Source of the DNA: Nautilus pompilius
Lineage: Eukaryota; Mollusca; Cephalopoda; Nautilida; Nautilidae
Direction: 5' to 3'
Length of the DNA stretch: 64,000 bases
NCBI GenBank assembly: GCA_018389105.1
Contig: JACATO010001128.1
Span: 711,001-775,000 of the forward strand
How positions within the stretch are numbered: the first letter of the stretch is position 1; every line of letters begins with the position of its first letter. The notes below the pieces were generated by a model. That model worked only from the letters and a program-made list of their open reading frames with translations. It did not search any database and was not told the DNA's origin. Positions 498 through 64,000 of the stretch are shown in pieces. Made by a program: the position numbers and the translations under genes.

Positions 498-3400
498 AGC
501 GCACATTACCTGTGTCGTAAAAAAAAAATAGGGTTCCTTTCAAGACTTCGGGGTATTTGCTTAGGGATTAGGAAGGCCCTTACTTCGGATTTTGCCCTTC
601 CACTGTTATGGCCAGCCTTCGTCTTCGACAGTCTTCTGAAGAAGAAAAAAAAAAAAATTTTAGTGTCATCCCGTTCAACTGGAATGCAAAAGCCCAGTGT
701 GGTGTCAAATGTGCACTTGCAAAACGTGATCTGATTGGCTGACATACCGGAAATAGCGCCAGCCAGAGTTTCTGCCATAAAATTAAAAATGGCGTCGATT
801 AGACGGGTGGTTTGAATTGAAGCGAACGCGAAGTTTGTTTGGTTTTGGAATTTAGAAGCAAAAAAAAAAAAAATTTTTTTTTTAAAAAATTAAGGTACCT
901 TGGTTTAAGTTTAAGAGATATTATCTATACTTCGGGTAAGTCCCGAAATCGTGTGGGGTTCACTACATGAGAGACTTAAGTGTATTGTGGCGGCTCACCC
1001 ACGTGATCTAATGATTGGCCAAGAAGAAATGGCCGGGGTAATGGACAGAGAAGCGAATACAGTTTAAGAAATAAATCAGTAGTGGGGTCAGGGGATGAGG
1101 GCCCAAATCGTCGTATGGTTATTATATGGCAAAGAGTATTCCCGCTTGCGGCGTGCAGGCGACACGAGTCCAGTTGTCTTACCTAGCAACGGTTGTCAAG
1201 GCCTACGTTGTTGGTGGAGCAATCTGGAGAGGCCAATTTATTTATACGGAATGGTATTTCCAAGCAACTCCTCCCTAAAAAAAAAAATAGTCATATGGTA
1301 CAGGAAATAGAGATGCCAGCGAATTAGACAGTTTGCCTGTTGCTGTCTGCTGTTTATTTGTGTTTAGTTTTCACGCAGTGAAGAGAAAGTAGCTGCCGAT
1401 TATGAGGCCCGGGTATCTGCTGATACAGCGGCCCCCCCAGGAAGAGGATCCAGCCCAACAAAGACACCGAGGACGATCTGGTAACACCAGGGCAAAGAGA
1501 CAGACATACCGGGTCTTAGCCGATGTTTGGAAACCAGATAAACAGTTGCAGCTTCCCAGATCGCTCAACTGTAAACGGCTTAAACGATACCCATGGCAGG
1601 CCTGGCTAGCATACCCTCCGGCTCGTTTTTATTTTCTGTTTACCCTGTATTATTGTGTTCGGTTGCGGAATAAGGGGGAAGGTGGACAGAAGTCGGATCG
1701 GCTTCTACACGAGCATATAGACACGTGGACCAGTCCATGAATCTAACAGAGACAGCCACGAAGCGGCCACACACGTGGCAGGAGAATCTAGGAAGTCTGG
1801 GGAAAACAAGAATGTCGCGGGGCAATACCGACCGGGTCAAGGAATTGGAGAAACGATGGCCGAGCCAGCATCGTTTTTGAAAATCAATCGTATTGTGTGA
1901 GAAGCATGGTTTGGCTCTCAGAGGAGCGCAGGGACAGCAGTCAACGTCTTGATGACAACCGAAACGCTGTGGATTTTCGGAAACTCTCAGACTTTAGAAT
2001 TGAGGCAGGCGATAAGATCTCGTTGGAGAGAACGAAGAATGCAACATATCGATCAAAAGCTAATCAGAACGAACTAATGTATCTCGTTGCTCGGACTTCA
2101 ACTGTGTTGGTCGCGACGTCAGAACTGCGGGAATGATGGGACAGGACGCTCAGCTATTCCCAAACATCTGGGGTAAGCTGAAGAACCGTTTTCCCCCATC
2201 GCCGAAAAACCGGTCATTCTGGCCCTTATAAATTCTTGAACAGAGCGACAGGTTCAGAAACGACACCGGTAACATGTTTTCACAACCCAACACCGGCCAT
2301 GACCGCTTCCTGCAACAGGGGGGGGGGACCGACTGGAAATTCTTCTCCCCTTTGTGTCTCCCTTTCACGCGCCATCTTTAAAGGAAATGCTTACACCAAA
2401 AGTTCATAATCGCTCGATTCCCCCCCCCAACCACCTTAAATAGTGGACGCAAGACGGGTGCCGAGGACGTTATTTACCCGGGGGAAGAAATTCCGGGCGA
2501 CACCGGGGTAACATGTCAAAATGGCGAAACAGAAGACCGCCTTTCACGTGTGCGGCAACGCACAGCGGCTCGGGATGCCTCAACAAAAGAGAGGAGTGGG
2601 GGGGGCCGCCGACAGCGGACTCGGGACGGGGAACCCTTCTACATTGTCCCGGCGATTTCTCCGCTAACCGGGGAGAACTCCGACCCCGCGGCGGGACGGC
2701 GCATTTCCACCCCTCGGAGATCCCGACCTTGATGGCGGACCGAACCCCCAGAGGCGACGAGTTCTGACGCATCGCGGCCCCCCCCCGGAATCTAAAACGA
2801 AAACGGTGGAGGGGGTTAGGGGGACGGGATCGAGGGGCCCCCTTTTTTTCCTACCCAGATAATATTAAACCTGATGTACAAAACAAACAGACGGATTTCC
2901 AGAATTAAGATGATCGCGGCTATGGCGGCCGAAGACTCGACACACCCCCCCACTCTCTCCTAGCGGACGTCCAAAAGGAAATCGTCGTGTTTATTGGGGG
3001 ACAAATACGGCCCCCGAGAATTTTCCCTGTGGAGGGTAAAAGCTTCGCCGGTAGAATCGGAACCCTTTTTTTGTTTATTTTGCTTGTCCGTCTGTTAGCG
3101 AAACAGATAATTTACCCGTCGGAAAGCGGAGAGAATAAATTCTGAAGTGCCGGGGCTTTCTGGCTTGGAGTCTTCTCCCTTTCCTCCTCCTCCTCCTCCT
3201 CCTCCTCCTCTATACAGCTGCTTTTCTCTATGTTGTCTGGCCTTTGGCAATCGATAAAATGACATTTTTTTTTTTTTCGCCATGGCCACGCTTATTAAAA
3301 ACCCCATAGATCGCGCAGAACGAGCCTTCTCTTTCTAATCGGTCAATAACTATAAATATAAGCTGGATTGATGGCATTAAAGCACCGTGTACAGGTTTAC

Positions 3401-3930
3401 CTCGCTTCGCCGACTTCCGATGTCCAGCAGGATGGCAGGTGGCGCCTACTCCAGCCCCCATTAAGCGTGTGATTCATAAAAACAAGGGCGCAGGGTTTGC
3501 CTGATTAATTCAGTCCCTAAACGGGCCCGGTTCTCTCCCACCCACACCCCCCATCCACCCATTTGCCATTCAGCCAACGAATTCCTAGATGCCCATGAAT
3601 TCTTCTCAGCTAATTTACGAAACATTTACGTGTTCGTGGTTTTGGTTTTAAACGTCTCCCCCCCCCCCCAACTCTGGTGGACGATTTTAGGATTCCAGAG
3701 ACCTGTCGCATTGTTGAAGATGCGTAAGCGGACCCAATTCTGACTTCTGAGAGTTTCCTTCCTTGTATCCGTTTTTGTCTTGCGAGAGGCCTAAAAATGT
3801 ACGAGTAATCTCTCATTCGCAGGTCGAAGTAACGGTTACATTTGTTATCTCTTTATCAAAAGTTGTTTTTTTTTTTAAATAAAAATAAAATATACTTTTT
3901 TGGATGTTTTTTTTTTATTATAATAAAGAG
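498..3930. other. No recognised gene; partly GC-rich
   Basis: Short open frames on both strands, none resembling a known family. From about 2,450 to 3,050 the sequence is CpG-rich with poly-C/poly-G runs (near 2,320, 2,425, 2,780, 2,945), as in a promoter-like island. There is a (TCC)n run near 3,185-3,210. No exon can be supported. Confidence 0.5.
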
Positions 3931-3934
3931 AGGA

Positions 3935-4175
3935 CGTTGTGGCACAGTGGGTAGCGAGTTCGTTCGTTCGTCAGTTCTTGTGACGTGGGGTCGGAGGTAT
4001 GTGCTACTATTGAGGGCCAAAAGTTCTCCTCTGGTCGCTATCATTTGCCTTGACCTTCACCCTGGAGAAGGATGGGCTCTGACATGTTGTAAAATGCCCT
4101 AGATACACCTCTCGAGGTGCCCCAACGACCTATGGGTTATGGGACAAGAGAAACGAAGAAGAATATAATATATTT
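3935..4175 (+). mobile_element. tRNA-derived SINE-like element
   Basis: Starts with an A-box-like TGGCACAGTGGGTAGCG, followed about 40 bp on by a diverged B-box (GGGGTCGGAGGT). A unique body and an AT-rich end follow. This is the usual SINE layout of tRNA-like RNA polymerase III promoter plus tRNA-unrelated body. Copy number elsewhere cannot be judged from one window. Confidence 0.5.
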
Positions 4176-4366
4176 ATAAAGAAAACATGCTCATCGTAAT
4201 TAGGTAAATTATTAAATATAATTGGTATGATTTCTAGGGCATCTAAAGTTTATATTACATCATTTATTGACTCAGGAGCTATAAAGTTTTTTGTGATTTT
4301 CTTTACTTGTACAAATCATATATTTTTTTATTTTTGAAAATTAAATAAATATACTTTTCAGATATA

Positions 4367-4445
4367 CAGGAACACCCGACTTACGTAAGGGTTACGTTCC
4401 AGAGACCTTTACGTAACTCGCGTATTACGTAACTCGGGGGGTCTG
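4367..4445. mobile_element. 79-bp palindromic pogo/mariner-like element
   Basis: Both ends read TA-CAG inward, then a CCCGA[C/G]TTACGTAA block, so the element is two terminal inverted repeats with almost nothing between. It is flanked by TA on each side, the target duplication of Tc1/mariner/pogo transposons. A related end lies at 23,174. Confidence 0.5.
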
Positions 4446-4449
4446 TACT

Positions 4450-5425
4450 TCATACAGATTCTGGCAGTAGTTTCTACTACTATATTTCTAGCTCTGAAGA
4501 GAACAGGTGTAGATTCTGGATGATCAGATAAAAATGATAGCAAATGAGTAATGGAACATGTTAGCAAAACACTTTCAAAATCTGCATAAATTACAAAGAG
4601 TACTTCTAATTTTCTGGCAAAGTTTAAAAATTCTAATTTATTATTATAGGTTGTCTTTTTTTTTTTGCGATAAATTGTCTGTTTATGTTTTATGGGTCCT
4701 CTCTCGTCCCCAAAATGTAATAGACACCTGGGGGAGGAAGTCTGATTTACGCCCTAAACACTTTTAAATCAGATCGTAACAACTTTGACTTTGAGTTTCT
4801 TAAAACATGTTTTACTGCAAAAGCGGGGGAAGTATTTCCTTCTATGCTTAATTCTTATTAGCAACTGCAAACAGATGCGCGACCATACACCAAAAAAAGG
4901 ATGCTTAATCCTTGCGTCGAATGATTAGCGCAGGAACATTATTTCTTTAAAAATCGGGTGATTCTATACGCTTGGATGTTTCCATAGGTCCACGCCTTGT
5001 TGTTGTGTCGTTCTTTCTACAGTAAAAACCAAGTCGTTAAAGTGAATTTACAAAGTCATCAGAAAGCGGACATAAACATTCAGCAGAACATTCATTCACT
5101 TCTTCCACGTTAGTTTCAGCGTATTTAAGTTTTACATATAATATAACCTGAACTACAGCGTCACGATGCTTCCTTAACTAGGAAAAGGATCTTCTCTACT
5201 TCTAGTCTTCGATTCTCTAAAAAGACTAAAGTTTATAGACTTACTTTCTGGTGTCGTAATTTCTAAATCAACAATATAACCATCAAAAGCAATGTTTATA
5301 ACTTTCACTTTATTCTAATTTCTTATCGTGCTACAATTTAATTTTTTTTTCTTTAAATCAAGATCAGCTTCTTTTTTTTTTTTAAAAAAATATCGAATCT
5401 CTTTTGTCATAACCATAGTTAGCCT
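4450..5425. other. No recognised gene
   Basis: AT-rich DNA with poly-T tracts. No open frame over 70 codons with family resemblance, and no repeat of note. Confidence 0.5.
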
Positions 5426-5433
5426 AAGAACCG

Positions 5434-5660
5434 ATTGTAATTGCTTAGGGACACGTGACAAATATGGTAATTGCCTCGATTGTAATTGCTTAGGGACACG
5501 TGACAAATATGCTAATTGCCTCGATTGTAATTGCTTAGGGACACGTGACAAATATGGTAATTGCCTCGATTGTAATTGCTTAGGGACACGTGGCAAATAT
5601 GGTAATTGCCTCGATTGTAATTGCTTAGGGACACGTGACAAATATGCTAATTGCCTCTGT
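5434..5660. repeat. 45-bp tandem repeat, 5 copies
   Basis: The unit begins GATTGTAATTGCTTAGGGAC, then ACGTGACAAATATGGTAATTGCCTC; 45 bp, five near-identical copies with G/C or A/G swaps. The CACGTG-like core ACACGTGAC recurs in each. The 149-codon plus-strand frame and the minus-strand frame are products of the repeat (15-residue period). They lack any other sign of coding. Confidence 0.92.
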
Positions 5661-5948
5661 TTACTTATGCAAGATTTGGCCTCGGCGCCTATTAATACTC
5701 ACGATCTTAAAAGACTTTTGAATAAGTTTTTTATTATTCGAGTTTTCATCAAGAAGAGTTTGAAAACTGAAGTTTAAGATTTGTGGCTGATATTCTTCAA
5801 ATAATTTGTCACGGGTCTCTTTGTTATGTTATTTCCTTGTTTTACTCCACGTCCTCGAAGTTGGTCGGGATGTTCTAGAAAAGGAAAAGGAATTGAAAAA
5901 TAATACGGTTAGATTGTTTTTCTTCTGATGAGATGATGGTCCAATTCC

Positions 5949-5949
5949 G

Positions 5950-6004
<55 letters not shown>
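5949..6004. repeat. (ATT)n microsatellite
   Basis: About 18 uninterrupted ATT units. Confidence 0.97.
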
Positions 6005-6006
<2 letters not shown>

Positions 6007-6230
6007 TGTTTTTTTCCTGATAGGAGAAACCCACTCAACATCGACAAAGTTCCACCGCGATGGGTTTCGGCGGAAGATGGCCCTGTGAAGTTTCATGTGA
6101 AGCCATAAGTCGGCAAACTCCTTGCCTTGTCTGCTCTACGAACCGTACTGATAGACGGGGTATATTCCGGCACTAAGACTTGCATTTGGCCGCTGTATTT
6201 CTTAAAAAAAAACAACAAAAAAAAAACAAA

Positions 6231-6287
6231 CAGTTTTTACTACCCCGCTTATAACGACCTGCCGTTATAAGAGGGGTATTACGACTG
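6231..6287. mobile_element. 57-bp TIR-only hairpin element
   Basis: A compact inverted repeat: CAGT, TACCCC and TTATAACG on the left are mirrored by CGTTATAA, GGGGTA and ACTG on the right, around a 6-base loop. CAGT ends and the TTATAACG block resemble pogo/Tigger-type transposon termini. It looks like a deletion product that kept only its two ends. Confidence 0.45.
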
Positions 6288-6289
6288 CA

Positions 6290-8930
6290 AGTTGTAATTC
6301 GAAAGAAACCAGGTATAGCTTGACGCAGACGGATTCTCTAAACGTTGCAATAAAGTTTGTTTTTTTTTAAAAAAAAACGAAAACAGATTTTAAGTTTTTT
6401 TTTGTTACCCGTCGAAGGAATAAATCGGTTTGTTTTTTTTTTATTTATGTATATGAAACACGACTGTCGTGTGTGAAGTCAGCCTGACAATTTAGGTCGA
6501 CCTCTTTATACGCTATTGTACAATACGCCTGGGGTGGGGGTGGGGGGTTATAAATAACCAGTAGTAAACATTTGGGTTTGAGATTTAAAACGTGAGATAT
6601 TTTGAATTTTAATCAGGTTTCACTTGTCCACCCGGTTGATTTGTATATTATTCTGTCTGAAATCCAAGCTAAGTTGTTAAGGTCATTTTTAAAATTCGAG
6701 CAGAGTAGGGAACATTCACTTCCCTCGCGTGTATTTGAATACTTTCCTTTATTAAAATAAACAATCACTGACACTAGTTTGGAGTCTGGCCATCGCACGC
6801 CGGTTTTGGGGTCAGCCCCTATTATGAATCAGTACCACGGGTGCCGGTTAATGCTTAGCTGCTCGGTACTCGGTAGATATTCATCGCTGTGGGAGCGCTT
6901 CCGGGTCTTTGTTCTCCGTCATGGCGACTTCAGACCTGCTCCGCGGCGAGGGAGACGGGACAAAGGCGGCGTGACTAACGTGATCCCGAACCGGCATCTG
7001 CTCGGGGGCTACCTGGCAACCTTCTAATAAGCGGTGAGCATCGGTTATTAATAAACCAGCTTAAACAAACCGCGGGAGGAAGGTGAGATGGGTGTGGCGC
7101 AGTAGTCTACACAGCACTGATAATGATGATAGAGACGTGCACGAGATCTGTACAGATGAAGAGTAATTGACAACACACACACACACAGTGCATTACTATT
7201 TGGTCTGTGAGCCCGTTGCTTTATATAGAGCGTAACCCCTTGTTCTCCCACACAGGTCATCGATGCGTGACTGCGGAACGTTGTTAGCGCTTTCCACAAT
7301 TCATCCGAGATGTTTGGTTGCCGTTTCAATTTCTCAGTATCCATATACCCCGCCACCCCCAAGCACCACTGTAGCTGTTCTACCCTGACCTATTGCTTGC
7401 TCTTCTCTGGTCCGCCTTTGAACAAACTGCCGTTGATTTTTGCCAACCGGTCCAGACCTGGACCCGCCTCCCTCCTGGTTTGGTCACTCGCTGCTGCCCG
7501 TTTATTTTCCTATCCTCAGCATACGTTGCCGGACAGCTGCGCCCTGAGACCACTATTCCGAAACCGCTAACTTTTGCACCAGCAGCTAGTTACCTCCCCT
7601 TTGCAAGATCTCTACTGGTCCATCACGGAAAGAACGTGCCCCCGAGGTACTCAACATCGCTTTAGTGATTTTCCTTCCCCGACTGCGCCTGTTATCATCA
7701 GTACCCGTTTTGCACACCCGTCATGCGTACGGCTCCTTCTAACATTGGAAGTCGGCACCATCTAAGACTGATTTCTATACGCCTGTCATAAGGTACAGAA
7801 GTTTTGTAACGACCTGATATTTCCTTTCCCAGAAGCCATAACATTCACCACAGATACCGCCGCCTCCATCTTAACCGTACTTTAGCTCGCGGATGTTCAC
7901 GGAAGTGTCGTGGTACGGACTGCAATTTGTCGTGGCGGAAGGACAAAACCGGTGCTTGTCGAAGGACGCTTCAGTCTGTCGACAAGGTGTGCCTCACGAC
8001 ATCTGACACCCTTGTTCTCCAGGCGAATGGCGCCAGGAATCAAGGCATCCAGCTCGCCTCCCTGCATCTGCCTCGAAGTCCCGATATGGATCCGATCCAT
8101 CAGCCAGTCCACAAACCACGCCAATATAGCGGAATTAAAGGATATAGGGGAAACAAGATAGAACCAGACCCCGATGCAAAATATCGTTGATTCATCGCGA
8201 AAACCGGATTTAAAAATACGTTAATTGCCACTTTTCACCTGAACAATTTCCCCGCGCACCTTTGGCATCCTGCTGGATACTCCCCAAAATATTGCCTCGT
8301 AAGTAACCTCTCTCCCCCTCTTTCATCTCCCTCGGTGACTGACATTAGTTATACCACCCTTCCTCTGATTCCTCGATCTGGTTGATCCCGATCAAGTTCA
8401 GTGTGGTTCAGATCTAGAGATCGATAAGGCCAAACCATGGTCTTAAGAAGTCCTTTTTGATTCCCTTCTGGGGGCAAAGTACTGTGTACTGAGCTTTGCA
8501 ATATGCTCCAGATTATTACCTTACTACAGTATAAACCCATCAGCTGTCGAACGACGGCCTAGCAGAAGCGCATGGTGTTGCAGTACACCGAAATCTCTCT
8601 CAGCTGACTTCATTTGATAAAACGGTTGTTCGCAGGCCACCTCACGTGGCCTCCTCCACGGTTTCCGTGAGGCAAACAGCTTTAAGACCGGAAATAACCG
8701 ACAGCCGGTCTCTTACGGAATTCTGTTTTTCGTAAGCACCCATTAGTAATGGCGTTTATTTAAACGCATACAAAGGCGTAGAATGAGTCTGTAATTATTC
8801 AAGTTATCAGGGGAACGAGATTAATATCGTAGTTTTGGAAAGAGCTAAATTTAGTATTCATAGAAATAGATCGCTAGGCGCATAATTAGGCAAACTGCTT
8901 AAAATGATAATGTCATGATTATGGTTTATA
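6290..8930. other. No recognised gene
   Basis: Mixed-composition DNA, moderately GC-rich at 6,780-8,200, with short open frames on both strands and no family match. I see no splice-flanked exon that can be defended. Confidence 0.45.
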
Positions 8931-8937
8931 TTTTCCG

Positions 8938-8964
8938 ATATATATATATATATATATATATATA
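8938..8964. repeat. (TA)n microsatellite
   Basis: About 13 TA units, followed by a pyrimidine run. Confidence 0.95.
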
Positions 8965-9390
8965 GTATTTTCTCTCTCCCCCCCCCCCCTTTTTTACACG
9001 CTGAGGAGCAAATGACAGTGTTTTCGTAATGGGACCCTATTCCGATCGCCAGCACACACGTACCGATCGAGAAGGTAGGTAACCGTCGAGAGATTGAGAA
9101 AACTCATTGACGCGTCCGACGACCGTTCATCCATTCCTGCCTTCATCATCGGTCTGAAGCTATTCCAGTCGTTGCTCAAGAAAGTCGGTATCGCTCGAAA
9201 TCGATAGGATTCCCACTCCGCGATGCCAAGAGAGAAAAAAAGAAAAAAACCGTTCGGGGAACTGGCCGTGAGGGGAACGTATCCTAGCCAACGTTTCGAC
9301 ACCAGGAAGGCCGCGCCCTGGTTCTAGAGTACGTGAAGGTCTCGCGTCATCCGGCACCGAGTCTGTCTAATCGAACTCTACGGGAAAAAG

Positions 9391-9423
9391 AGAGAGAGAG
9401 AGTGATGGAGAGAGAGAGAGATG

Positions 9424-9492
<69 letters not shown>

Positions 9493-9815
9493 GAGAGATA
9501 GATGATGATGAATGGAGGGAGAGAGAGAGCTAGAGAGACCTAGAGAGAGCTCTAGGAGAGAGAGGAGAGAGAGAGAGAGCAGAGAGGAGGCTCTCTGCGA
9601 GACTAGAGAGATTCTGGAGAGATTCTGCTTCTCGGTGGCGCACATCGTCTCTGAGGAGAGAGAGATCTCTTTCTCGCTCTCTTCTTCTTATGCATATGAA
9701 AGCGGAATCTAGCAGACAAAAAAGAGCTAATCTCGCTCTCCGGAGATCTCTCTGAGAGCTCGCTCGAGCGTCGAGCGAGAGAGAGCGAGCGAGAAGCGAG
9801 AGAGCTCTCTCTAGA
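9391..9815. repeat. (GA)n tract passing into GA/CT palindrome-rich DNA
   Basis: An (AG)n run to about 9,486, then degenerate GA sequence whose purine strand flips back and forth. Many six-base palindromes occur (GAGCTC, CTCGAG, TCTAGA, AGATCT). Leu/Ser- or Arg/Glu-rich open frames here are composition artefacts. Confidence 0.85.
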
Positions 9816-12464: not shown

Positions 12465-13105
12465 CAATCTGCTCGAAACAACAAACTGATTGGTAAAATG
12501 ACGTAAGGTGATTTTCGAGGCATAATATCTACAGTATCGTTCAAAAACACGCTCATTGTTCTAGAAAACTTAATTCCTTTTAAGCAACTCCCCCTTCCCC
12601 CAAGATATTTAAGAAAGATGCTATAGAGGGCGGCATCTTCAGCACTGTTCAAGAAGCGATGCAGCGTATTCCGGAAATTCCGATTTTTCCCATCCTTGTC
12701 ACAGAAATACAAAACATGGATATCCATTTATTTTACACGGAGGCAGAAATATAATAATTCAATGTGGGTCTATTACTGCGACATGAAACTTGGGGCTAAT
12801 AATTAAGCGCGCGATTTGCATAAAGGGATAATCGGTTTTGCCAGTATTCTGTGTTTAAGGTGAACTTTATTTTTAAATCTGTGGCAGACATCTCGAATAA
12901 TCCATCCGGCGAGTGTTAACATACAGGAAAGTGAACGATTTTCATTCTTGCCTCCCTTTGTGGCACTCTTTCGTGCAGAAAAATCGCTGTTGTCGTCAGG
13001 AAGCGTGTTGATATATTATACTTTTTTAAATTATTTTTTTTTAAGGCTCAACTCGCACAAATTCCTTTAGCTTCTGCTGAAACCCTCCCCCCTACCTCTC
13101 TGTCT
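12465..13105. other. No recognised gene
   Basis: AT-rich flank between the hAT relic and the CRE minisatellite. A 94-codon minus-strand frame (12,443-12,727) has no recognisable motif. Confidence 0.45.
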
Positions 13106-13112
13106 CCCCATC

Positions 13113-13683
13113 TCTCTCAGTCCAGACGTCATCTCTCTCTCTCTCCATCTCTCTCAGTACTGACGTCATCTCTCTCCATCTCTCTCAGTACTGACGTCAT
13201 ATATCTCTCCATCTCTCTCAGTACTGACGTCATCTCTCTCTCCATCTCTCTCAGTACTGACGTCATCTCTATCTCTCCCTCCGTCTCTCTCAGTGCTGAC
13301 GTCATCTCTATCTCTTTCTCCAACTCTCTCAGTAATGACGTCATCTCTCTCTCCATCTCTCTCAGTACTGACGTCATCTCTATCTCTCCCTCCGTCTCTC
13401 TCAGTAATGACGTCATTTCTCTCTCCATCTCTCTCAGTGCTGACGTCATCTCTATCTCTCTCTCCATCTCTCTCAGTACTGACGTCATCTCTCTCCATCT
13501 CTCTCAGTAATGACGTCATATCTCTCTCCATCTCTCTCAGTACTGACGTCATCTCTCTCTCCATCTCTCTCAGTAATGACGTCATCTCTATTTCTCTTTC
13601 CATCTCTCTCAGTACTGACGTCATCTCTCTCTCTCCATCTCTCTCAATACTGACGTCATCTCTCTCTCTCCATCTCTCTAGTT
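13113..13683. repeat. Minisatellite with TGACGTCA in each unit
   Basis: About 16 irregular units of 26-40 bp: a pyrimidine stretch (TCTCTCTCCATCTCTCTCAG), then TACTGACGTCA or a close variant. I count 15 perfect TGACGTCA palindromes, the full CREB/ATF-1 consensus, plus one AGACGTCA. Open frames on both strands are by-products. The same core word recurs at 22,505-22,690. Confidence 0.93.
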
Positions 13684-15092: not shown

Positions 15093-16052
15093 AGAATATC
15101 ACGGGGCAGTATACACAGTGAATAAACGTCAAAAGTTTATACTGGGAATATCACGGGGCAGTATACATGGTGAATAAACATCAAACGTTTAGACTGTGAA
15201 TATCACGGGGCAGTATACACAGTGAATAAACGTCAAATGTTTATACTGGGAATATCATGGGGCAGTATACATAGTGAATAAACGTCAAAAGTTTATACTG
15301 GGAATATCATGGGGCAGTATACATAGTGAATAAACATCAAATGTTTAGACTGTGAATATCACGGGGCAGTATACATAGTGAATAAACGTCAAATGTTTAT
15401 ACTGGGAATATCATGGGGCAGTATACATGGTGAATAAACATCAAACGTTTAGACTGTGAATATCACGGGGCAGTATACATAGTGAATAAACGTCAAATGT
15501 TTATACTGGGAATATCATGGGGCAGTATACATAGTGAATAAACATCAAACGTTTAGACTGTGAATTAGACTGTGAATATCACGGGGCAGTATACACAGTG
15601 AATAAACGTCAAAAGTTTATACTGGGAATATCATGGGGCAGTATACATAGTGAATAAACGTCAAAAGTTTATACTGGGAATATCACGGGGCAGTATACAT
15701 AGTGAATAAACATCAAACGTTTAGACTGTGAATATCACGGGGCAGTATACATAGTGAATAAACGTCAAATGTTTATACTGGGAATATCATGGGGCAGTAT
15801 ACATAGTGAATAAACATCAAACGTTTAGACTGTGAATTAGACTGTGAATATCACGGGGCAGTATACACAGTGAATAAACGTCAAAAGTTTATACTGGGAA
15901 TATCATGGGGCAGTATACACAGTGAATAAACGTCAAACGTTTAGACTGTGAATATCACGGGGCAGTATACACAGTGAATAAACGTCAAACGTTTAGACTG
16001 TGAATATCACGGGGCAGTATACACAGCGAATAAACGTCAAACGTTTAGACTG
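15093..16052. repeat. 52-bp satellite with 5-unit higher-order structure, 18 copies
   Basis: Each unit runs GAATATCACGGGGCAGTATA, then CAYAGTGAATAAACRTCAAA and NGTTTAKACTGK. I count 18 GGGGCAGTATAC cores over 960 bp. Two unit classes alternate: one ends TTTATACTGG, the other TTTAGACTGT. A 12-13 bp partial duplication (GACTGTGAATTAGACTGTGAA) appears twice, 272 bp apart, which is five units plus the insert. Each unit has the palindrome GTATAC, and many have AAACGTCAAACGTTT. Confidence 0.95.
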
Positions 16053-22007: not shown

Positions 22008-22290
22008 TACGGTGGCCCAGGGAGATGGTGAGATGATGGAGGAACGATTATGGTAAAAATTCCTTAGAAAGGATCGGATCAATTGAAGTCGCCGGTTCGA
22101 ATAGGTATTGGTTACCATGATAGGTTTTCCAGATGAACATTTGTTATGTGAGATAAACAACCTTCAGGGGCGGGACTGTTCTTTAGCAGCAGCTGGCACA
22201 CGTGTTTTTCGGATGCCTGCCTCGGCAGGCCCTGGTCTGACCCTAAACCCTACGACGAGTGTTCTTAACGAGGAACAACAAACAGGCTGA
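22008..22290 (+). mobile_element. tRNA-derived SINE-like element
   Basis: TGGCCCAGGGAGATGG matches the RNA polymerase III A box, and CGGTTCGAATAGG about 75 bp on is a near-consensus B box. A unique body follows. No obvious A-rich tail. Confidence 0.45.
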
Positions 22291-22452
22291 TTTACCGATC
22301 GCCCTTAATCAATGGCGCGAGCTTCCAGATTTTCTCTTCGAACTCTGATCGGAGATCCTGAATGCGACTAAGTGGAGAATTTTTTCGTACAGTAATCCGT
22401 TGTTTGTCCGCCCTCATGCATTCGAATATATAGAACCCTCCCACAGTTCATA

Positions 22453-22455
<3 letters not shown>

Positions 22456-22523
<68 letters not shown>

Positions 22524-22632
22524 AGATGACGTCAGTGCGAGAGAGATGGGGAAAGAGAATGAGAGATGGAGAGAGAGAGAGAGAGAGAGAGAGATGACGT
22601 CAGTGCGAGAGAGATGGGGAAAGAGAATGAGA

Positions 22633-22682
<50 letters not shown>

Positions 22683-22737
22683 GTCAGTGCGAGAGAGATG
22701 GGGAAAGAGATGGAGAGAGAGAGAGAGAGAAAGGGAG
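22456..22737. repeat. (GA)n with three TGACGTCA-bearing units
   Basis: Three copies of GATGACGTCAGTGCGAGAGA followed by GATGGGGAAAGAG, set in (GA)n. The core GAGAGATGACGTCAGT and the following GAGAGAGATGG match, in reverse complement, the minisatellite at 13,113-13,683. Confidence 0.93.
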
Positions 22738-22739
22738 AT

Positions 22740-23170
22740 AATTAATCTTTTAACTTTTTTTTGAGAGTAGTGTATTCTTTTCTGATCTCTCGCTATTATA
22801 AAAGATACGTTCATATATAAAAAAAAGATGGAAAATCTTTTAACTAATTTATTTTTTTTTTTAAAAAAAACTATTTTAATAACAAAAGGAATTAATCCGG
22901 AGACCACTATCGGGGCAGAATTTTGGCGTTGATTAGGTTAGTACGAGTCAATGCTTATCGTTGAATTACTAAAGAATTGTTTTCACCTCGCTTATATCTT
23001 CCGTCTCGTCATGGGGAACAAATGCACAAAGGAAAACTCCGCGGGTTAGTTCTGGATACAGACATTGTGGTGGCACCTGTTTGTCACTTCAGAGGGCTCC
23101 GAACCAGTCGACGATGCTGGATAGCAGGGTCTTTACTCTCGAATTTTACAGCTTTCTGAAGCAAATTATC
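22740..23170. other. No recognised gene
   Basis: AT-rich, with poly-T/poly-A at 22,850-22,870. No supported feature. Confidence 0.45.
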
Positions 23171-23173
23171 ATA

Positions 23174-23562
23174 CAGGGATAGATACCCCGACTTACGTAA
23201 GGGTTGCGTCCAAGTCGGCCATACGTAAGTCGAACTCGTGCGTGTACGGCAGTCTTACGTAAGCACAAAGGTAGGCAGTGAAGAGCACTGGACAATTTCT
23301 CCACCTCGGCAATCGCACCAGTCCTTTGCCCCGCCATCACCGTAGATCTCACGGGTTTTTTGGGGGGAGGAAGATCCTCACGGTCGTGTTGACCGTCGAC
23401 ACGGCCGCGCGCAATGGAAGACAAAGTCCGCCCGTCTCCATACTTCTTTATTATGCTCACCTTCTCCTCGAGCCCGATCAGCTTACGCTTCTTCGCGGAA
23501 CCACTAGCGCCAGCATCTCTTATTACACCATGGCTCGAAATGGGAAAATCTACGTAAAACTG
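23174..23562. mobile_element. Possible pogo/mariner MITE
   Basis: The left end is TA-CAGGGATAGATACCCCGAC followed by TTACGTAAGGGTTGCGTCC. The same CCCGACTTACGTAAGGGTT block is found at the 79-bp element near 4,370. A right end reading CTG-TA, with ACGTA inside, occurs at 23,562. The left end is convincing by comparison with 4,367; the right end is weaker. Confidence 0.4.
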
Positions 23563-23564
23563 TA

Positions 23565-26500
23565 AAAAGACTTACGCGCAACCGAGAGTGTGGGAGAGGA
23601 TGGGGATGCCGGCCGACTAACACACTCAGATCCCAGCGCTCATTACTCCGCGGCTCAAAGTAGTGCCCGCTCACACCCAGGTACCCACGCGTATCGCCAC
23701 GTGACATTTTTCCTTCTCGCAGAAACCCCGAGTTCTAAATGTAATACTTCCCACCCCGCAATCAGTAGTTGGATTACTATCCCTCCACTGGGCCCTTTTT
23801 AGTAGCAGAGTTCGCTATGGACGAGAAACTTCTGAGAGCGCCACGTATTAAAGGGACACGCCGAAGGGGTTGAACGAACGACCTTCTGTCGCTTAATCCC
23901 CATGCCAGACCCTTTTTTTTTTTTTAATATTGGGAAATCGTTTTCTCTCCCCCCCCCCCGAGGAACGTCGGGAACCGCAGCGAAGCCGGCTCTCTGCTGC
24001 TGAATGCGCAGTTTACGGACAAAAGTACTACGAAGCCGGGAGCGAGATTGCATTTTCACGTCAGCCAACACCGTCCTCATCCTGCTCCTCTCCATCACCG
24101 GTTCAAGAAAGTAAAACAATGAAACTCTCTCCTTCCACCCCGATGGTAATGTACGGAAAAAACAGTACAACTTTTTCTAGATGAGAGAAAGCAAAAAAAG
24201 AAAAATGGCCGTAGATAAAAGAAAAATAACAAAAACGGACCTATCTGCAGCATCAGTTTCACCAACTATTATTATTATTATTATTATCGCTGCTATATTT
24301 TATATCGCAATAGGCACGGCCGGTTATTCCCCTTATCTTTGTGTTCTGCAGCCAGTGGAGATAAGCTTATTCTCTCTTATGCGTCGTGGCAGAGTGCCTC
24401 CCATGATTCTTGCACACTCACCACCCGGTAAGTGATGAGCGCAGAGAGAGAGAGAGAGGCAAAGGTCCTATTCAACAAATCGTTTGTTTCTCATCCAGAC
24501 GAACCATTCTACACACCAAGGCACGAGAAACAAGGTTATTCGCAAAGGCTCGGTTTGCCCCCTTTCCTAAAAATGCTTATTTTAAACGAATCACTTCGGC
24601 TTCGTGAAGTAGCGAACTAAGCGTACAAACCCTAATTCGTCGAAAGGGCTTATTTACTGAAAACTAGACGTGCTCCATCTATTATTAAGTGATGAGAGAT
24701 AACAATAGAAGAGATCTTTTATTAGGATGCCAACATAACTACCACCGAAGTTAGTATGGCTTGTGGTACTTGCAAAAGAAGTTTAAAAATCCATAGACGA
24801 CTTAGATTATTATTATTTTACTACTAATAAACTTGGCGTTTGTTTTGTTTTGTTTTATTTTTTGAGGTCTGTGAACTTTTACCTTTTTTTTCTCAATAAA
24901 ATTGTGGTCTGATGGAGGTGGCGTACAGAGATAGGGAAAACTAGGAGATTAGTCGTTAAAGTAAGTACTTTTTTTTAAAAAAAAGAGCGGATGGGGGGAC
25001 AATCTGTAGCTCATTTTCCTTGAGAATGTATACAATGATAATTTCTAAAGATGGAAATGGTACGTCATCCTTATGACTAATCTAAAACGATGGCAAAGAA
25101 AAACTACATCTGGCGGCTGTGTTCGAGAGATACGGCTCGGATTAGCGGACTTCTTTGTTCAACACCAAAGGTTCTAGGTCAGAATACTAAAACAGTGTAC
25201 GAGCTTACAGGAATATATTCCTATAACCAAAAAAACTTAATCATAAAAAACAAAAAAAACATTGAGCCAGTCTCTTGTTTCGCAAATCTGTAAACAGTTG
25301 CCTGGGAAATGTCTGACAAAAGATGGAAGACTTATCGAATCAAATAGTTGATCAATTGAACAGAGAGCATGGGATTAAGGCCCCCCCTCCCTCTGACAAC
25401 ATATTTAAAAGAATCCCTTTATTAAATACATTCATGCATTAACACAAAAACCGGAACAGTTAACCTAGGTTTTTTTCCTTCTCCTTCCTGACATCAATGA
25501 GAATAAACTGTTCGATAGTTTTCCATCTCGAAATCTGCGACTTCTGAAACCTCAACTCTTTTGTCAGATCATTATTCTAATTCTCGTGACATTTTTGTCG
25601 CCCAGCGTAGATTAACACTTTAAAACTCAGATAAGACGCCATTTCACTAACCCAGAATTCTCAAATACCTTTTGTTCGAGAAAAAAAAGGGGGGGGGGCA
25701 AAAGTTAGCATTTACCTTTGTTTTCCAGAAAACCTAATAAAGTTAAAAATTGTAATTCCTTTTTTCTAACACTTTTATCTTGTATTCCTCTCTGGATTTC
25801 TGTCATTAACAGGAACAGAGCAGGCAGTTATATATTACAAGGAATATACTGTCTTCTTGAGATCACAGAGCCAATTCACTACATTCAACACCAAAGATGT
25901 AAACAGATTCTCAGACAAAAGAATGTATGGCAAAAGACCTACCAAGTCCAGATCGTGTAAACATAAACACACAGAATGTGGGTGAATTTGAACATATTTC
26001 CATTTCGGACAAAATTCTAGCAAAGTAGAATGACAAAGGCAATGGCGGCTATTCGGTGAGAAGACAGACATCCTCAGTCTCTGCACACACACACACACAA
26101 CCTTTTTGTTCTGTTGGTTGAAACAGCTGACAGAGAAAAGCAGAACTAAATGGTCAGTTCTATTTACTAATTATAAAAAGTTTTTAAAAATACATATTAA
26201 TCGTAGAAGTTTATAAAATAATCCAACATTCACCATTATAGACTTCTGACAAAGCACTCTTTTTTTTGGTCTTGAGACCAGTTCTCTAAAAATGCTCATA
26301 TTTTTACATATCAGGTGAAATCCTCGAGGGAAAAAAAAAAGGGTCGTTACATAGGCGAATTGCCAGCCAGTAAAAATAAGGAATTTTATTTGGTCTTTCT
26401 CACCGCAGTACCGTTTGCGTCAAAACCAGATTCTGAACGCCGTTTTGGCTATCATTCCTTGGTGCCTTTGTCGGGGCGAGTCCTCACATTCCAATCCGTT

Positions 26501-26960
26501 TCTGATTTGTAAGTACTGCGGTTGTTCTGTTCACGGATGTGCCCAATCACATATTTTATCCAAACTGATCTGTCGAGCCCAAGACACATGCACAGTCAGA
26601 TGGTTGCCAAAAAAAGCAGGCTTAGCGGTGTCAGTTCCCTCGCTTTCTAACAGCTTACAAACGAGTTTTACTTATTGATGTTTTTATTTTCCCCCCCCCC
26701 TTCAATTTGTCCACACCCAGGTGAGGTGTTCCCAGAGCTAACCAGGGCAATTCGTCGGAGAACACTGGTCGGACCATCAGCCACCGACTGAGGCAATAAG
26801 CATCTGTCCTTTTATTGTCATGGTCGCCATCATCAAGGCAGGGATGTAGCTTATTTGATGAATAAGTTTCTTTAGGGGGTATCATAACAAAACAACTCCC
26901 CCAATTCAAAATTGCTAAAACCAACAACGAGCAACAAAAGCCCCACTGGCGTGACGGAAC
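23565..26960. other. No recognised gene
   Basis: Unique DNA with many short frames and no family resemblance. Minor tracts: poly-C near 23,950, (ATT)n near 24,269, poly-G near 25,690, (CA)n near 26,082. It might include the KMT5 polyadenylation region at its right end. Confidence 0.4.
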
Positions 26961-26967
26961 ATTTTAA

Positions 26968-28036
26968 CTCTTTAGTGGACAACGTGTTTTGAGACACTGC
27001 GGTTCAAATGGCACTATCAAGCCGTGTAAAAGTCAAGCTGTCTAATGGAACAGTGGTAAAAACAAAAAAATAATCTTGTAAATATATGAAAACAAAAAAA
27101 AGGAATAAAGACATTTCTGAATCTTTTATACAATATTTACACAAATGTATACAAAACCTTCAATATAAAACTTGAAAACAAAATGGATCTGATTACACCA
27201 GAGTATATAGACACAGATTTACTATATAATATAGGCTCAGCAGCATTGCATCCCTGAGTGCTCTCCACAGACATCCATCTGCTCCTCACACAGAATTGCT
27301 ATGGTGTTTTGATTCTTCCTCCAGTCACAAAGCTAACACCTAGAATGCTCAGCTGGAGGTTCTTGTAAAAACCCATTTGCTCTAATGATGGAAAAAAAAA
27401 AAAGAAAAAAAAAGAAGAGAGATTTCTGAAGCTGTGGATTATTAACACGTCTCTGCAGCTGCGGTTCGACTAGTTCTTCAGTAAGAGCACGCAGGAATAA
27501 TACACGTCTTCTGAATTTCTTGCCTGATGCCCAATCAGGAAACCCAAAGCATCCACGCCATCCTTTGTTTGTAAAACTAAATAATTTCTCATTTGTACTC
27601 ATCTTCAGTAATGTCGTCTTCATCATGATGAATATCTCCTGACAGTAATATTACATATTTTCCTACTTTTATAACACACAAGACAAACATACATACATAC
27701 ATACATATAGTCTTTCTGAAAACAAAAACGAAGCTGTGGAGCTGCCAATGTGTTTTGGGAAGAAGTTCCTCTGGTATACATGACCTGTTAAGAACATGGG
27801 GTTATATCCGGAATATGAATTACAAATAATCTAGAATGATAAATAGCAAAGACATTTTACTCACACTAGAGCCTATAAGGTCCCAGTTGCAAACTAGTAG
27901 TGTCACAAAAAAGACATAAAAAATAACCTTGTTTCCAGTCCTTATGCTAGATGCCACCACAACAGGCACGAGGTCTAAGTTATACTATTGAAAATGGTCT
28001 ACTGGACCTGACAGACCCTAGTTGTCCACTTAAGGG
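26968..28036 (-). mobile_element. piggyBac deletion derivative (TTAA-flanked)
   Basis: Flanked by TTAA at 26,964-26,967 and 28,037-28,040. The right end read inward on the minus strand is CCCTTAAGTGGACAACT; the left end on the plus strand is CTCTTTAGTGGACAACG, about 14 of 17 bases alike. TTAA target sites and CCCTT-type ends define the piggyBac superfamily. At 1,069 bp it is too short for a transposase gene. A minus-strand frame at 27,333-27,626 (FLRALTEELVEPQLQRRVNN) resembles a transposase fragment in piggyBac-derived proteins. It sits 816 bp beyond the KMT5 stop codon, perhaps within the 3' UTR. Confidence 0.68.
27333..27626 (-). pseudogene. Possible piggyBac transposase fragment
   Basis: A 97-codon frame whose middle (RRRVLFLRALTEELVEPQLQ) has the look of a helix-rich segment of PGBD-like proteins. 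It then dissolves into a poly-Phe run caused by an A-rich tract. The call rests mostly on its position inside TTAA-bounded inverted repeats. Confidence 0.35.
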
Positions 28037-28851
28037 TTAAAACAAACAAAAAAAAAAAAAAGGATTTTTTAGATTTTATTGTTCCACATGCTTAGCATCA
28101 ATACAAATCCATTGTAAACATGAGCCATTTATTTATTTATTTTTTTGTGATAATATGTATAACAGTAAAGAGTTGTTTTAATACCCTGAAGATCAAAGAT
28201 CCTTATGCTTTTGTATCAACACAAACCAATTATAACAGTAAAAATTTCTTTGTTAACAATAACCCTGAAGTGTCTGTCTTGTCGTCTTTTGCTTCAACAT
28301 AGACCACATAAACGCATTTTGTGGCGGACATTAGTATTATAAACCACAGTAAGGGAAAGAAACAGAACAGAACTGGGCCCACTTTTCGCCTACTTCAAGT
28401 GCTACACTGACGTTCACATACTAAAAGTGTAAAAATATATTTTTAAAAATTAAATTCATATTTTTTTTTTTCTGCTATAGTTGCACTGAAGTGTTGTTAA
28501 GAATCACCGTTGTTGTGCCAGTCTCATTGTTTTCTTGTCAAACCACTTGAGACACAATAAAAATCTGTTAGAAAAGACTATACACTGTAGCGGTTGAGTA
28601 CAGGAGGGTAGAGTTTTAGCTTAACAGTGGGATAATGTTGAACTTTTTTGAAAGCCGAGATGCTGTTTGTCCGTCAATGACCAGTCATATTTAATGGGGG
28701 AGAGAGAGAGAGAGAGAGAGAGAAGAAAGGATGAATGAACAGATGATGAAGTGACAAAATAACTCTTAATTAAATAAAGATCATCTGTAAGATAGAGGTG
28801 GTACCAGAAACAAACAAAAAACAAAACAAAACAAACGGTAGTGACACTCAC

Positions 28852-44543
<15,692 letters not shown>

Positions 44544-50924: not shown

Positions 50925-52355
50925 CGAGGAGGGATTGATAATGAAGAAAATATTAAAACTGCTATTTTTTTTCCAGATCCATAATCTGCAGTTAGGGCAC
51001 AAAAAAAGCCTCTGAAAATGCTAATCTATAAGTCACTTCTATGAATTCATAATTTGGAGAATATTGTTAACAGATTAGACAAAATATCTTACAGCATTGA
51101 TAGCCTATGTGAAATGTGCTATCATTACATCATTTTAAATGAATGACTTGAAATCCTGTTTTTTTTTTTTATTTTTAAAAATAAACTTTTGGGTAGAATT
51201 TTGAAATATTAAAATTACTTAAAATTCCAGTAGGAAAAACTGATTTACTGGCAAAATATTTGTATATCTTGAATTTTTTTTTCTCTTTTTACTTCTGTAA
51301 AGAATGTGAATTATTTGCCAAGCAAAAATATAAAAAAAGAAGGGAAAATAATTAAATAAATGATTTCCAATATCTGTTGTTTGATACATGGATTTTGTCT
51401 TTTTAATATATTATTGTGTTCCAGATTTAATTTTAGGTTTCTTTGTTATTATTATTATTATTATTAATCCTATATTTATTACTTGTTTTGCTTAGATTTA
51501 GTTTTAATAACCTTTTGTCCTTACTCAAATACTTGCTCACATTTATCTTAGCCGTCCACATTAAGGTTCTGTCCGTTTCTCCATATCTCTTCCAAGGATT
51601 GTCTCCTATTAATTATTCCACCTTTCTATTTTAAAACTTGTCTACATCTTTTCTTTTAAAAAAAAAGAAAGAAAGAAGCAACACAACGAGTGATTACTGT
51701 GCTTTAGGCCCAACAGTACATTTACTGCTGCACAAACTTAATGCTACAGCAAAGTCTCTTTTCAATGGGAGGCAGTTTACCCAATATTATCGATCACTTC
51801 CCGCCAACGAAAACGAACGAATAAATAAGATATGGGTTTTGGGGCCCGGCGAGCTGTTGGTCGGCCTCATGTTTCGTCCTCGAACGTATTAAATCTGTCC
51901 CGGAATAGTACAGTAAATGCCATTGCCAGGTGATGTGGCAATCCGACATGGCGAACGGGGCAGGTAAGTGGGGGGGGGGGCTGCACCGATTTGACCCGAG
52001 AGGGTGAGGAGGAGTAGTAGGCTCACTCAACATCAGTCCCTCTTCGCCACCATAAACATTTCCCTCCTCTTCGAATGAAGTATGTCCGATATATTTATCG
52101 TTTTTTTTAAATTATCATCATTACTTCCTAAGTTATAGCGAAGGGGCAGACAACTCCATTAATTAAAAAAAAAAAAGAAAGAAAGAAAGGAGGAGGCAAA
52201 TGTTAACTTGTTCTATTTTGATTAAAAGTGAAGGCAGACACCGGGTCATTTAATGGAATTATTTCGAATAAACCAAAGAATCAGAAGGTAAAGTGAAAGT
52301 ACGTTCGTCTAGAGCGCCATGGAAGTAAAAAAAAAAAAAGAAATAATGTAAGAGA
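50925..52355. other. Intergenic, no recognised gene
   Basis: AT-rich, with (TTA)n near 51,444-51,465 and poly-A runs. No exon supported. Confidence 0.45.
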
Positions 52356-52359
52356 AGCT

Positions 52360-52500
52360 GCGTCTGATTGGTTGGAATGTTTAATGGCCGTGGTGGGGGG
52401 AGGGGCGTCAGGAAGGAATTTAACCAATGAAAAAGCTCGTTAGAAAACCGGTACGGACAGTTGGCGGGATGTTTTGAGTGTGTCTTGTCTGATATTTACG
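52360..52500 (+). promoter_or_regulatory. NCAPH2 promoter candidate
   Basis: An inverted CCAAT box (GATTGG, 52,366-52,371) and a direct one (CCAAT, 52,424-52,428) lie 60 bp apart, with a GC-rich stretch between and no TATA box. This layout is common for cell-cycle genes. The start site is probably 52,450-52,560, upstream of the first donor at 52,666. Confidence 0.5.
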
Positions 52501-52665
52501 AGAACGGCTATAGTTGTAGTCGATGGGAGTTGTCCCTTCCTAAGTTACTCGTTACTCGGGTGTTTAGGGGCAGAAGCCTTATTGTGATGACCCGGCGGCG
52601 ATAAGGGGCTTCTTTTTCCACTTGTTTAGGTTCCAGCCTTCAGCAGGTCCCGCAGACAGGGTCGG
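52500..52665 (+). other. NCAPH2: NCAPH2 exon 1 (5' UTR), 5' end approximate
   Basis: Non-coding leader ending at the donor GGTCGG|GTGAGTAC. The intron start is clear; the transcription start is inferred only from the CCAAT boxes. Confidence 0.45.
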
Positions 52666-53615
52666 GTGAGTACGACTCCTCTCTCTCTCTCTCTATCATG
52701 AGGCTGAGAGCCGGGTGAGTACAACCCCCCCTCTCTATCATCAGGCTGAGAGCCGGGTGAGTACGACCCCTCTCTATCTATCATCAGGCTGAGAGCCGGG
52801 TGAGTACGACCCCTCTCTATCTATCATCAGGCTGAGAGCCGGGTGAGTACGACCCCCCTCTCTATCTATCATCAGGCTGAGAGCCGGGTGAGTACGACCC
52901 CCCTCTCTATCTATCATCAGGCTGAGAGCCGGGTGAGTACGACCCCCCTCTCTATCTATCATCAGGCTGAGAGCCGGGTGAGTACGACCCCCCTCTCTAT
53001 CTATCATCAGGCTGAGAGCCGGGTGAGTACGACCCCCTCTCTATCTATCATCAGGCTGAGAGCCGGGTGAGTACGACCCCCCTCTCTATCTATCATCAGG
53101 CTGAGAGCCGGGTGAGTACGACCCCCCTCTCTATCTATCATCAGGCTGAGAGCCGGGTGAGTACGACCCCCCCTCTATCTATCATCAGGCTGAGAGCCGG
53201 GTGAGTACGACCCCCCTCTCTATCTATCATCAGGCTGAGAGCCGGGTGAGTACAACCCCTCTCTATCTATCATCAGGCTGAGAGCCGGGTGAGTACGACC
53301 CCCCTCTCTATCTATCATCAGGCTGAGAGCCGGGTGAGTACGACCCCCCTCTCTATCCATCATCAGGCTGAGAGCCGGGTGAGTACGACCCCCCTCTCTA
53401 TCCATCATCAGGCTGAGAGCCGGGTGAGTACGACCCCCCTCTCTATCCATCATCAGGCTGAGAGCCGGGTGAGTACGACCCCCCTCTCTATCCATCATCA
53501 GGCTGAGAGCCGGGTGAGTACGACCCCCCTCTCTATCCATCATCAGGCTGAGAGCCGGGTGAGTACGACCCCCCTCTCTATCCATCATCAGGCTGAGAGC
53601 CGGGTGAGTACGACT
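52660..53615 (+). repeat. 45-bp minisatellite; each full unit has a 5' and a 3' splice site
   Basis: The unit is GTGAGTACGACCCCCCTCTC, TATCTATCATCAG, then GCTGAGAGCCGG: 33 nt of intron-like sequence plus 12 nt of exon-like sequence. I count 22 GTGAGTAC donors and 21 GGCTGAGAGCC segments; 20 follow a CAG and the first follows GAG. Early units have CTATCTATCATCAG and late ones CTATCCATCATCAG, showing stepwise spread. First-to-last units differ by one to three bases in the C run. Confidence 0.95.
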
Positions 53616-53652
53616 CCTCTCTATTTATATATCTATTTATTTACTCTTTCAG
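52666..53652 (+). other. NCAPH2 intron 1, built of splice-site repeats
   Basis: 987 nt from the first GTGAGT to the CAG before the start-codon exon. Nearly all of it is the tandem array described separately. The last segment (53,604-53,652, 49 nt) is unique, with an AT-rich pyrimidine tract TTTACTCTTTCAG. Confidence 0.7.
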
Positions 53653-53656
53653 GATA

Positions 53657-64000
<10,344 letters not shown>

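Follow-up and report, generated by a model that had tools for sequence, protein, structure and literature searches.

The window (the whole 64,000-nt stretch of DNA that was analysed; coordinates refer to its + strand unless given otherwise) contains the 5′ end of NCAPH2 together with a long minisatellite. An ATG at 53657 opens a reading frame that matches the NCAPH2 N terminus (Pfam CNDH2_N, E = 1.6e-11), in agreement with a preliminary description that had placed the array before the NCAPH2 start codon. If transcription starts upstream, at the position presumed here, the array lies within the 5′ leader, where it fills most of the first intron of NCAPH2, a putative leader intron. The principal features are as follows.

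52365..52371, − strand: CCAAT-box-like motif, upstream of the presumed transcription start
52424..52430, + strand: CCAAT-box-like motif
52461..52469, + strand: E2F-like TTGGCGGGA
52480..52665, + strand: putative leader exon 1, with a presumed 5′ end, two short uORFs inside and a single match in the genome
52663..53622, + strand: minisatellite array (TRF: period 45, 21.5 copies, 96% match)
53653..53776, + strand: exon 2, with the start codon and first 40 codons of NCAPH2, followed by the donor CAG/GTAAAACT
55053..55136, + strand: probable further NCAPH2 exon (weak match to CNDH2_N positions 63-90, E = 0.035, below the Pfam cut-off)

E2F-like motifs are typical of cell-cycle gene promoters, and the two CCAAT-like motifs together with the E2F-like TTGGCGGGA (52365-52469), all recognised by consensus, would fit a cell-cycle promoter just upstream of the leader. 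The window holds two copies of the E2F-like word, the second at 51799-51807 on the − strand, against 0.33 expected; this number was reached in 2 of 100 shuffles. CCAAT-like matches number 20 in the window versus 36 expected by chance, and as promoter elements they are no more than suggestive. Downstream, a 30-bp pyrimidine-rich minisatellite (55980-56735; 25 copies, 99% match) occupies what is perhaps a later NCAPH2 intron.

All genome searches were carried out in the window's own assembly (727.6 Mb, 2558 contigs). A search with the joined leader exons, which would reveal a retrocopy carrying the exon 1-exon 2 junction, returned only NCAPH2's own two exons, and exon 2 DNA had no match in a phage collection.

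Splice motifs of the repeat unit

Each 45-bp unit is ordered as a donor, a pyrimidine tract, an AG and a 12-nt block. The preliminary description had counted 22 donors and about 20 acceptors, and a scripted count bears this out. In particular, there are exactly 22 GTGAGTAC donors on the + strand of the window, every one inside the array, with starts running from 52666 to 53604 and with the 9-mer CGG/GTGAGT common to all 22; the search of 52001-54600 found 21 exact GCTGAGAGCCGG blocks, all preceded by AG (CAG in 20 cases, GAG in one), with ATCATCAG before 20 of the blocks and ATCATGAG before one. The donor-to-donor step is 45 bp in 14 of 21 intervals, and the other seven measure 49, 42, 43 (three times) and 44 (twice). 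Both terminal units are of the GACTCCTCTCT type that is found in a second array on contig C1774. In the inner units, C runs four to seven bases long replace GACTCCTCTCT, and most of these units have TATC steps. The sites on which splicing would depend are listed below.

52666..52673, + strand: donor 1, TCGG/GTGAGTAC, the first of 22 identical donors by script count
52698..52700, + strand: ATG in the first intronic stretch (reading frames computed)
53604..53637, + strand: last donor and 3′ tail (34 of 34 bases shared with the C1774 array at its 3′ end; 46 of 46 once the 12-nt block before the donor is included)
53624..53628, + strand: TTTAT, branch-site-like (yUnAy consensus), with its A at −26 from the exon, in the tail common to C1774
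53651..53652, + strand: terminal acceptor TTTACTCTTTCAG/GATAATG, the sole acceptor here to combine a consensus branch site, a pyrimidine-rich tract and AG

The terminal acceptor at 53652 is separate from the array and stands four bases before the NCAPH2 start codon. No yUnAy was found for the unit acceptors in the 28 nt between the previous AG and their own; because animal branch sites are degenerate, the unit acceptors could nevertheless be functional.

The array donor has a predicted U1 pairing energy of −12.9 kcal/mol, compared to −14.0 kcal/mol for CAGGUAAGUAU and −8.3 kcal/mol for the exon 2 donor. The predicted chance of being unpaired is small for all 22 donors and is highest for donor 1 (4.0e-4; the next is 7.3e-5), with internal donors predicted to be mostly paired. 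For two units a zipper-like fold is predicted (z = −1.84), its stability being matched in 11 of 200 shuffles. Among arrays of shuffled units, 77 of 300 were at least as stable as the NCAPH2 array (z = −0.57), and 227 of 300 were at least as stable when C1774 units were used (z = 0.73). RNA structure was therefore rejected as the explanation: shuffled-unit arrays fold as well, and the structure of this array is nothing special.

A unit with both motifs rarely arises by shuffling. Across 20,000 circular dinucleotide shuffles of the 45-bp unit, a donor as good (8 of 9 consensus positions) appeared in 93, a YAG as good (17 of 20 pyrimidines before it) in 128, and both in none. Genome-wide, three GGTRAGT motifs at minisatellite spacing occur at 1064 places versus 834 for the mirrored motif, a modest excess in which neighbouring units of one array are counted separately, so that the places are not independent arrays. 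A donor-YAG-donor spacing occurs 53 times versus 58 in the control, which is no enrichment, for a pattern that is stricter at the acceptor than the NCAPH2 unit and fails to match the NCAPH2 array. Overall, a unit with donor and acceptor is rare per array and is not remarkable per genome, because the genome holds many minisatellite arrays.

Several other repeats carry splice-like motifs. At C1712:20291-21086, many units of a tandem repeat of about 30 bp have TTTGTAG abutting GTAAGT, resembling a row of AG/GT recursive-splicing ratchet points. A 50-bp repeat at C121:3411091-3412147, with GGTAAGTAATG and CAATTTCAG, is another donor-plus-acceptor minisatellite. Within the window, a repeat of about 33 bp (13097-13679) has long pyrimidine tracts ending in CAG/TACTGACGTCA; it is acceptor-like (19 of 20 pyrimidines) and has no good donor.

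A second array and the origin of the repeat

The genome contains only one other array of this unit, with 60 units from C1774:19416 to about 22242. A search of the 727.6 Mb with a 20-base core (up to 2 mismatches) returned 82 sites, comprising 21 at NCAPH2, 60 at C1774 and one stray, and no further array at this threshold; the stray, on C302 with 2 mismatches, was set aside as a single site. The last unit and tail of the two arrays are identical over 46 bases, after which the sequences diverge abruptly, and a 30-base end motif (up to 3 mismatches) is found only in these two arrays. Their upstream flanks, compared over 200 bases, are unrelated. That the same array and 3′ tail recur beside unrelated flanks counts against the earlier proposal of a local boundary duplication.

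Splice motifs on C1774 are as well preserved as those at NCAPH2 (donors in 59 of 60 units, AGs in 60 of 60), and intact motifs accordingly require no splicing function; they are a product of array homogenisation, and not evidence of use. There is no sense-strand Pfam domain (E ≤ 0.01) within 10 kb either side of the C1774 array, and on the opposite strand the only match across C1774:1-19399 and 22250-32249 is an exon of the LicD family, some 5 kb past the array. The array may still sit in a gene, as the absence of a Pfam match is no proof of an intergenic site. Matches to either flank showed no array-free copy of the C1774 site. The 5′ flank has diverged repeat matches (66-74% identical) in the first 545 of its 1141 bases only, except for two 37-base C2034 matches to TA/CT-rich sequence that borders the array. 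The 3′ flank enters a multi-copy element from about query base 574 (543 in one match), about 500-530 bp past the array, with long matches that are mostly 77-87% identical. A search of viral contigs with 25 bases of the unit gave no exact match.

Another array in the window, at 5432-5657 (45-bp unit, 5 copies), recurs on a single further contig, C1437, with about 11 units there, and a copy of the NCAPH2 array elsewhere is in this respect not unusual here. When 4.4 kb of C1437 was compared to window 2001-9500, the flanks were about 97% identical over window 4980-5876, with a further block at 84% extending to 6598; the two arrays would have arisen by recent duplication or else be alleles that differ in repeat number. 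The window array at 15094-16052 had no other match in the genome. The genome also contains 117 COX1 matches on many contigs, many of them with TAA or TAG, which are probably nuclear mitochondrial copies.

The NCAPH2 array appears to be one locus of a dispersed minisatellite that has two, whose birthplace would be either NCAPH2, C1774 or a lost source; each of these options is compatible with any reading of the splicing. The preliminary description had proposed an exon-intron boundary duplicated in tandem. This is not supported: exon 1 was considered as the source of the 12-nt block, but the similarity of the block to the end of exon 1 is not significant, with 520 of 2000 shuffles scoring as well.

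Birth at NCAPH2, where the repeat would have grown from the intron's own donor before the array and its 3′ intron tail were copied to C1774, has in our estimate slightly less than an even chance. It would account for the left edge of the unit homology falling at the exon 1 donor, for a tail that continues into a coherent 3′ splice site, and for first and last units that keep the C1774-like GACTCCTCTCT while inner units differ. However, the 12-nt block is no recognisable copy of exon 1, and the C1774 array, too, has a natural place beside TA- and CT-rich sequence. Import is rather unlikely; here the array, with its donor, would have reached the NCAPH2 leader as a copy of the one on C1774 or of a lost source, perhaps creating the intron. 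The identical 46-nt 3′ end followed by an abrupt parting, the larger size of the C1774 array (60 units versus 21 blocks) and the −26 branch-site candidate within the common tail are all consistent with import, but no target-site duplication was seen by eye at either edge, no array-free second copy of the NCAPH2 leader was found in the genome, and only by chance would the left edge then coincide exactly with the donor. A portable intron is a distinctly unlikely version of events, where the minisatellite was transferred to the NCAPH2 leader in one block, and the donor, the branch site and most of the intron came with it. If true, it would have brought 21 spare donors able to add an in-frame MRLRAGI, plus LRAG per included block.

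Splicing of the leader and its possible effect on the message

The best overall explanation, with a probability of roughly 0.55, is that a dispersed minisatellite supplies a main donor (donor 1) and some later donors in use, with 12-nt microexons being rare. We infer the transcription start, the splicing and any effect on NCAPH2 level from the DNA sequence. According to this explanation, a dispersed and probably young minisatellite would occupy most of the NCAPH2 leader intron, with each unit presenting a strong 5′ splice site and a pyrimidine-AG that would be preserved by homogenisation rather than by selection for splicing. The pre-mRNA would then offer 22 donors against one complete acceptor at 53652. 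Because the 22 donors share an identical core, the choice among them would be set by position and context, and not by donor strength.

The main product is likely to join donor 1 to 53652, removing a 987-nt intron. Donors nearer the acceptor can win splice competition, so donor 1 is not certain to be the default; intron lengths to 53652 decrease to 49 nt at donor 22. In some transcripts, later donors would act as alternative 5′ splice sites, each unit adding about 45 nt to the leader. Use of these internal donors may alter the leader in about 45-nt steps and affect translation. The preliminary description had predicted leader growth in multiples of 12 nt from included blocks; an internal donor used without upstream splicing would instead add about 45 nt per unit. 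It was correct that the 12-nt block contains no ATG, but it made no mention of the ATG at 52698-52700, which later donors would bring into the message. For example, joining donor 2 (52715) to 53652 yields MRLRAGI-MIPSQ in frame, adding seven residues to NCAPH2, while joining donor 3 instead turns this ATG into the start of a 6-codon uORF, as do donors 10 and 22, the two further donors examined.

Two rival readings place the internal sites at opposite extremes. At one, the array is an ordinary intronic minisatellite and inert filler, where splicing only ever joins donor 1 to 53652 and the internal motifs serve as silent decoys. This genome has many tandem GGTRAGT places, little more than for the mirrored control (1064 vs 834), the motifs are equally intact on C1774, where their preservation needs no function, and the internal donors have a low predicted opening. 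However, those donors share their core with donor 1 and have a better predicted U1 pairing than the exon 2 donor; the array folds no more strongly than shuffled-unit arrays (77 of 300), so that structural masking is not special; and the complete silence of 21 such sites would in our judgement be unusual. We regard inert filler as unlikely, though deserving serious consideration. At the other extreme, splicing retains a varying number of 12-nt blocks in the leader, as the preliminary description proposed. Its arithmetic stands, in that skipping one or more units gives introns of about 78 nt or longer, and such a leader is possible on paper, with 10,946 paths if introns must measure at least 60 or 70 nt (1,278 if at least 80 nt) and with blocks that keep the reading frame, adding LRAG each. 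But the unit acceptors are without a consensus branch site and follow the previous AG by 28 nt, 12-nt exons are hard to define, and such exons between 33-nt introns are poor splicing substrates. A combinatorial microexon leader is consequently improbable, and inclusion of 12-nt microexons would be rare under the preferred explanation, where donor 1 predominates.

Relation to known systems

Two familiar classes do not describe this locus. Recursive splicing ratchet points were rejected as an identity for the unit, since 12 nt separate AG and GT in 21 of 21 blocks; a search of open-licence literature for recursive splicing with intronic repeats found none. Introner-like mobile introns are inserted into genes as introns in many near-identical copies, and were rejected because there are two arrays in 727.6 Mb at up to 2 mismatches, the second without a sense-strand Pfam match within 10 kb.

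Turri et al., in Nucleic Acids Res 23:1854 (1995), reportedly described a minisatellite with multiple splice donors in IFI6 (6-16, G1P3). In human IFI6, two downstream repeat units are said to serve as splice donors, according to excerpts of PMC4526556. To the extent of those excerpts, IFI6 is the closest precedent: as in the NCAPH2 array, a minisatellite in a gene has units that offer several splice donors, and the NCAPH2 unit likewise has a 5′ splice-site consensus at a putative exon/intron boundary, with an NCAPH2 coding exon after the array. Unlike in IFI6 as excerpted, each NCAPH2 unit adds a pyrimidine tract and an acceptor-like AG to its donor, the array is placed in a 5′ leader, and a second array exists elsewhere; further, the IFI6 donors are said to be used, whereas use of the NCAPH2 internal donors is predicted.

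Other systems share parts of this arrangement. In fission yeast SPOG_01682 and SOCG_00815, tandem 24-bp AGGT duplicates are spanned by an intron (Zhu and Niu 2013, as summarised in part of PMC4974935), which similarly multiplies intron signals in a short tandem array. As summarised there, those units are exonic and carry AGGT, whereas the NCAPH2 array is intronic in the leader and its unit has no AGGT (the junctions are CAG/GCTG and CGG/GTGA); the unit is not the duplicated exonic AGGT segment on which tandem-duplication intron gain depends. The potato RdRp gene gained an intron by duplication across an intron-exon boundary, with the new intron shown by comparison to relatives (PMC4974935, in part); splice signals were similarly inherited via duplication, in a single event established from relatives. 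In human segmental duplications, minisatellites have driven exon/intron changes, some via cryptic splice sites (PMC2812944, in part), likewise altering gene structure; the cases described there are human paralogues with support from transcripts. Among the open-licence papers listed by literature searches, and judged by titles and abstract openings, none described a leader-intron array with a donor and an acceptor in each unit, which is weak evidence that no such case has been published.

Because a second array of the same repeat is present elsewhere in the genome, the motifs are probably passengers and not a device built for the purpose, though they would offer several alternative splice starts. 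The locus would provide a natural competition assay, with 22 identical-core donors at 22 distances from one good acceptor in a mitotic housekeeping gene, and bears on how donors are ranked by position alone. Moreover, it bears on whether an intron can be introduced or extended by a minisatellite, a kind of intron gain of which few cases have been documented.
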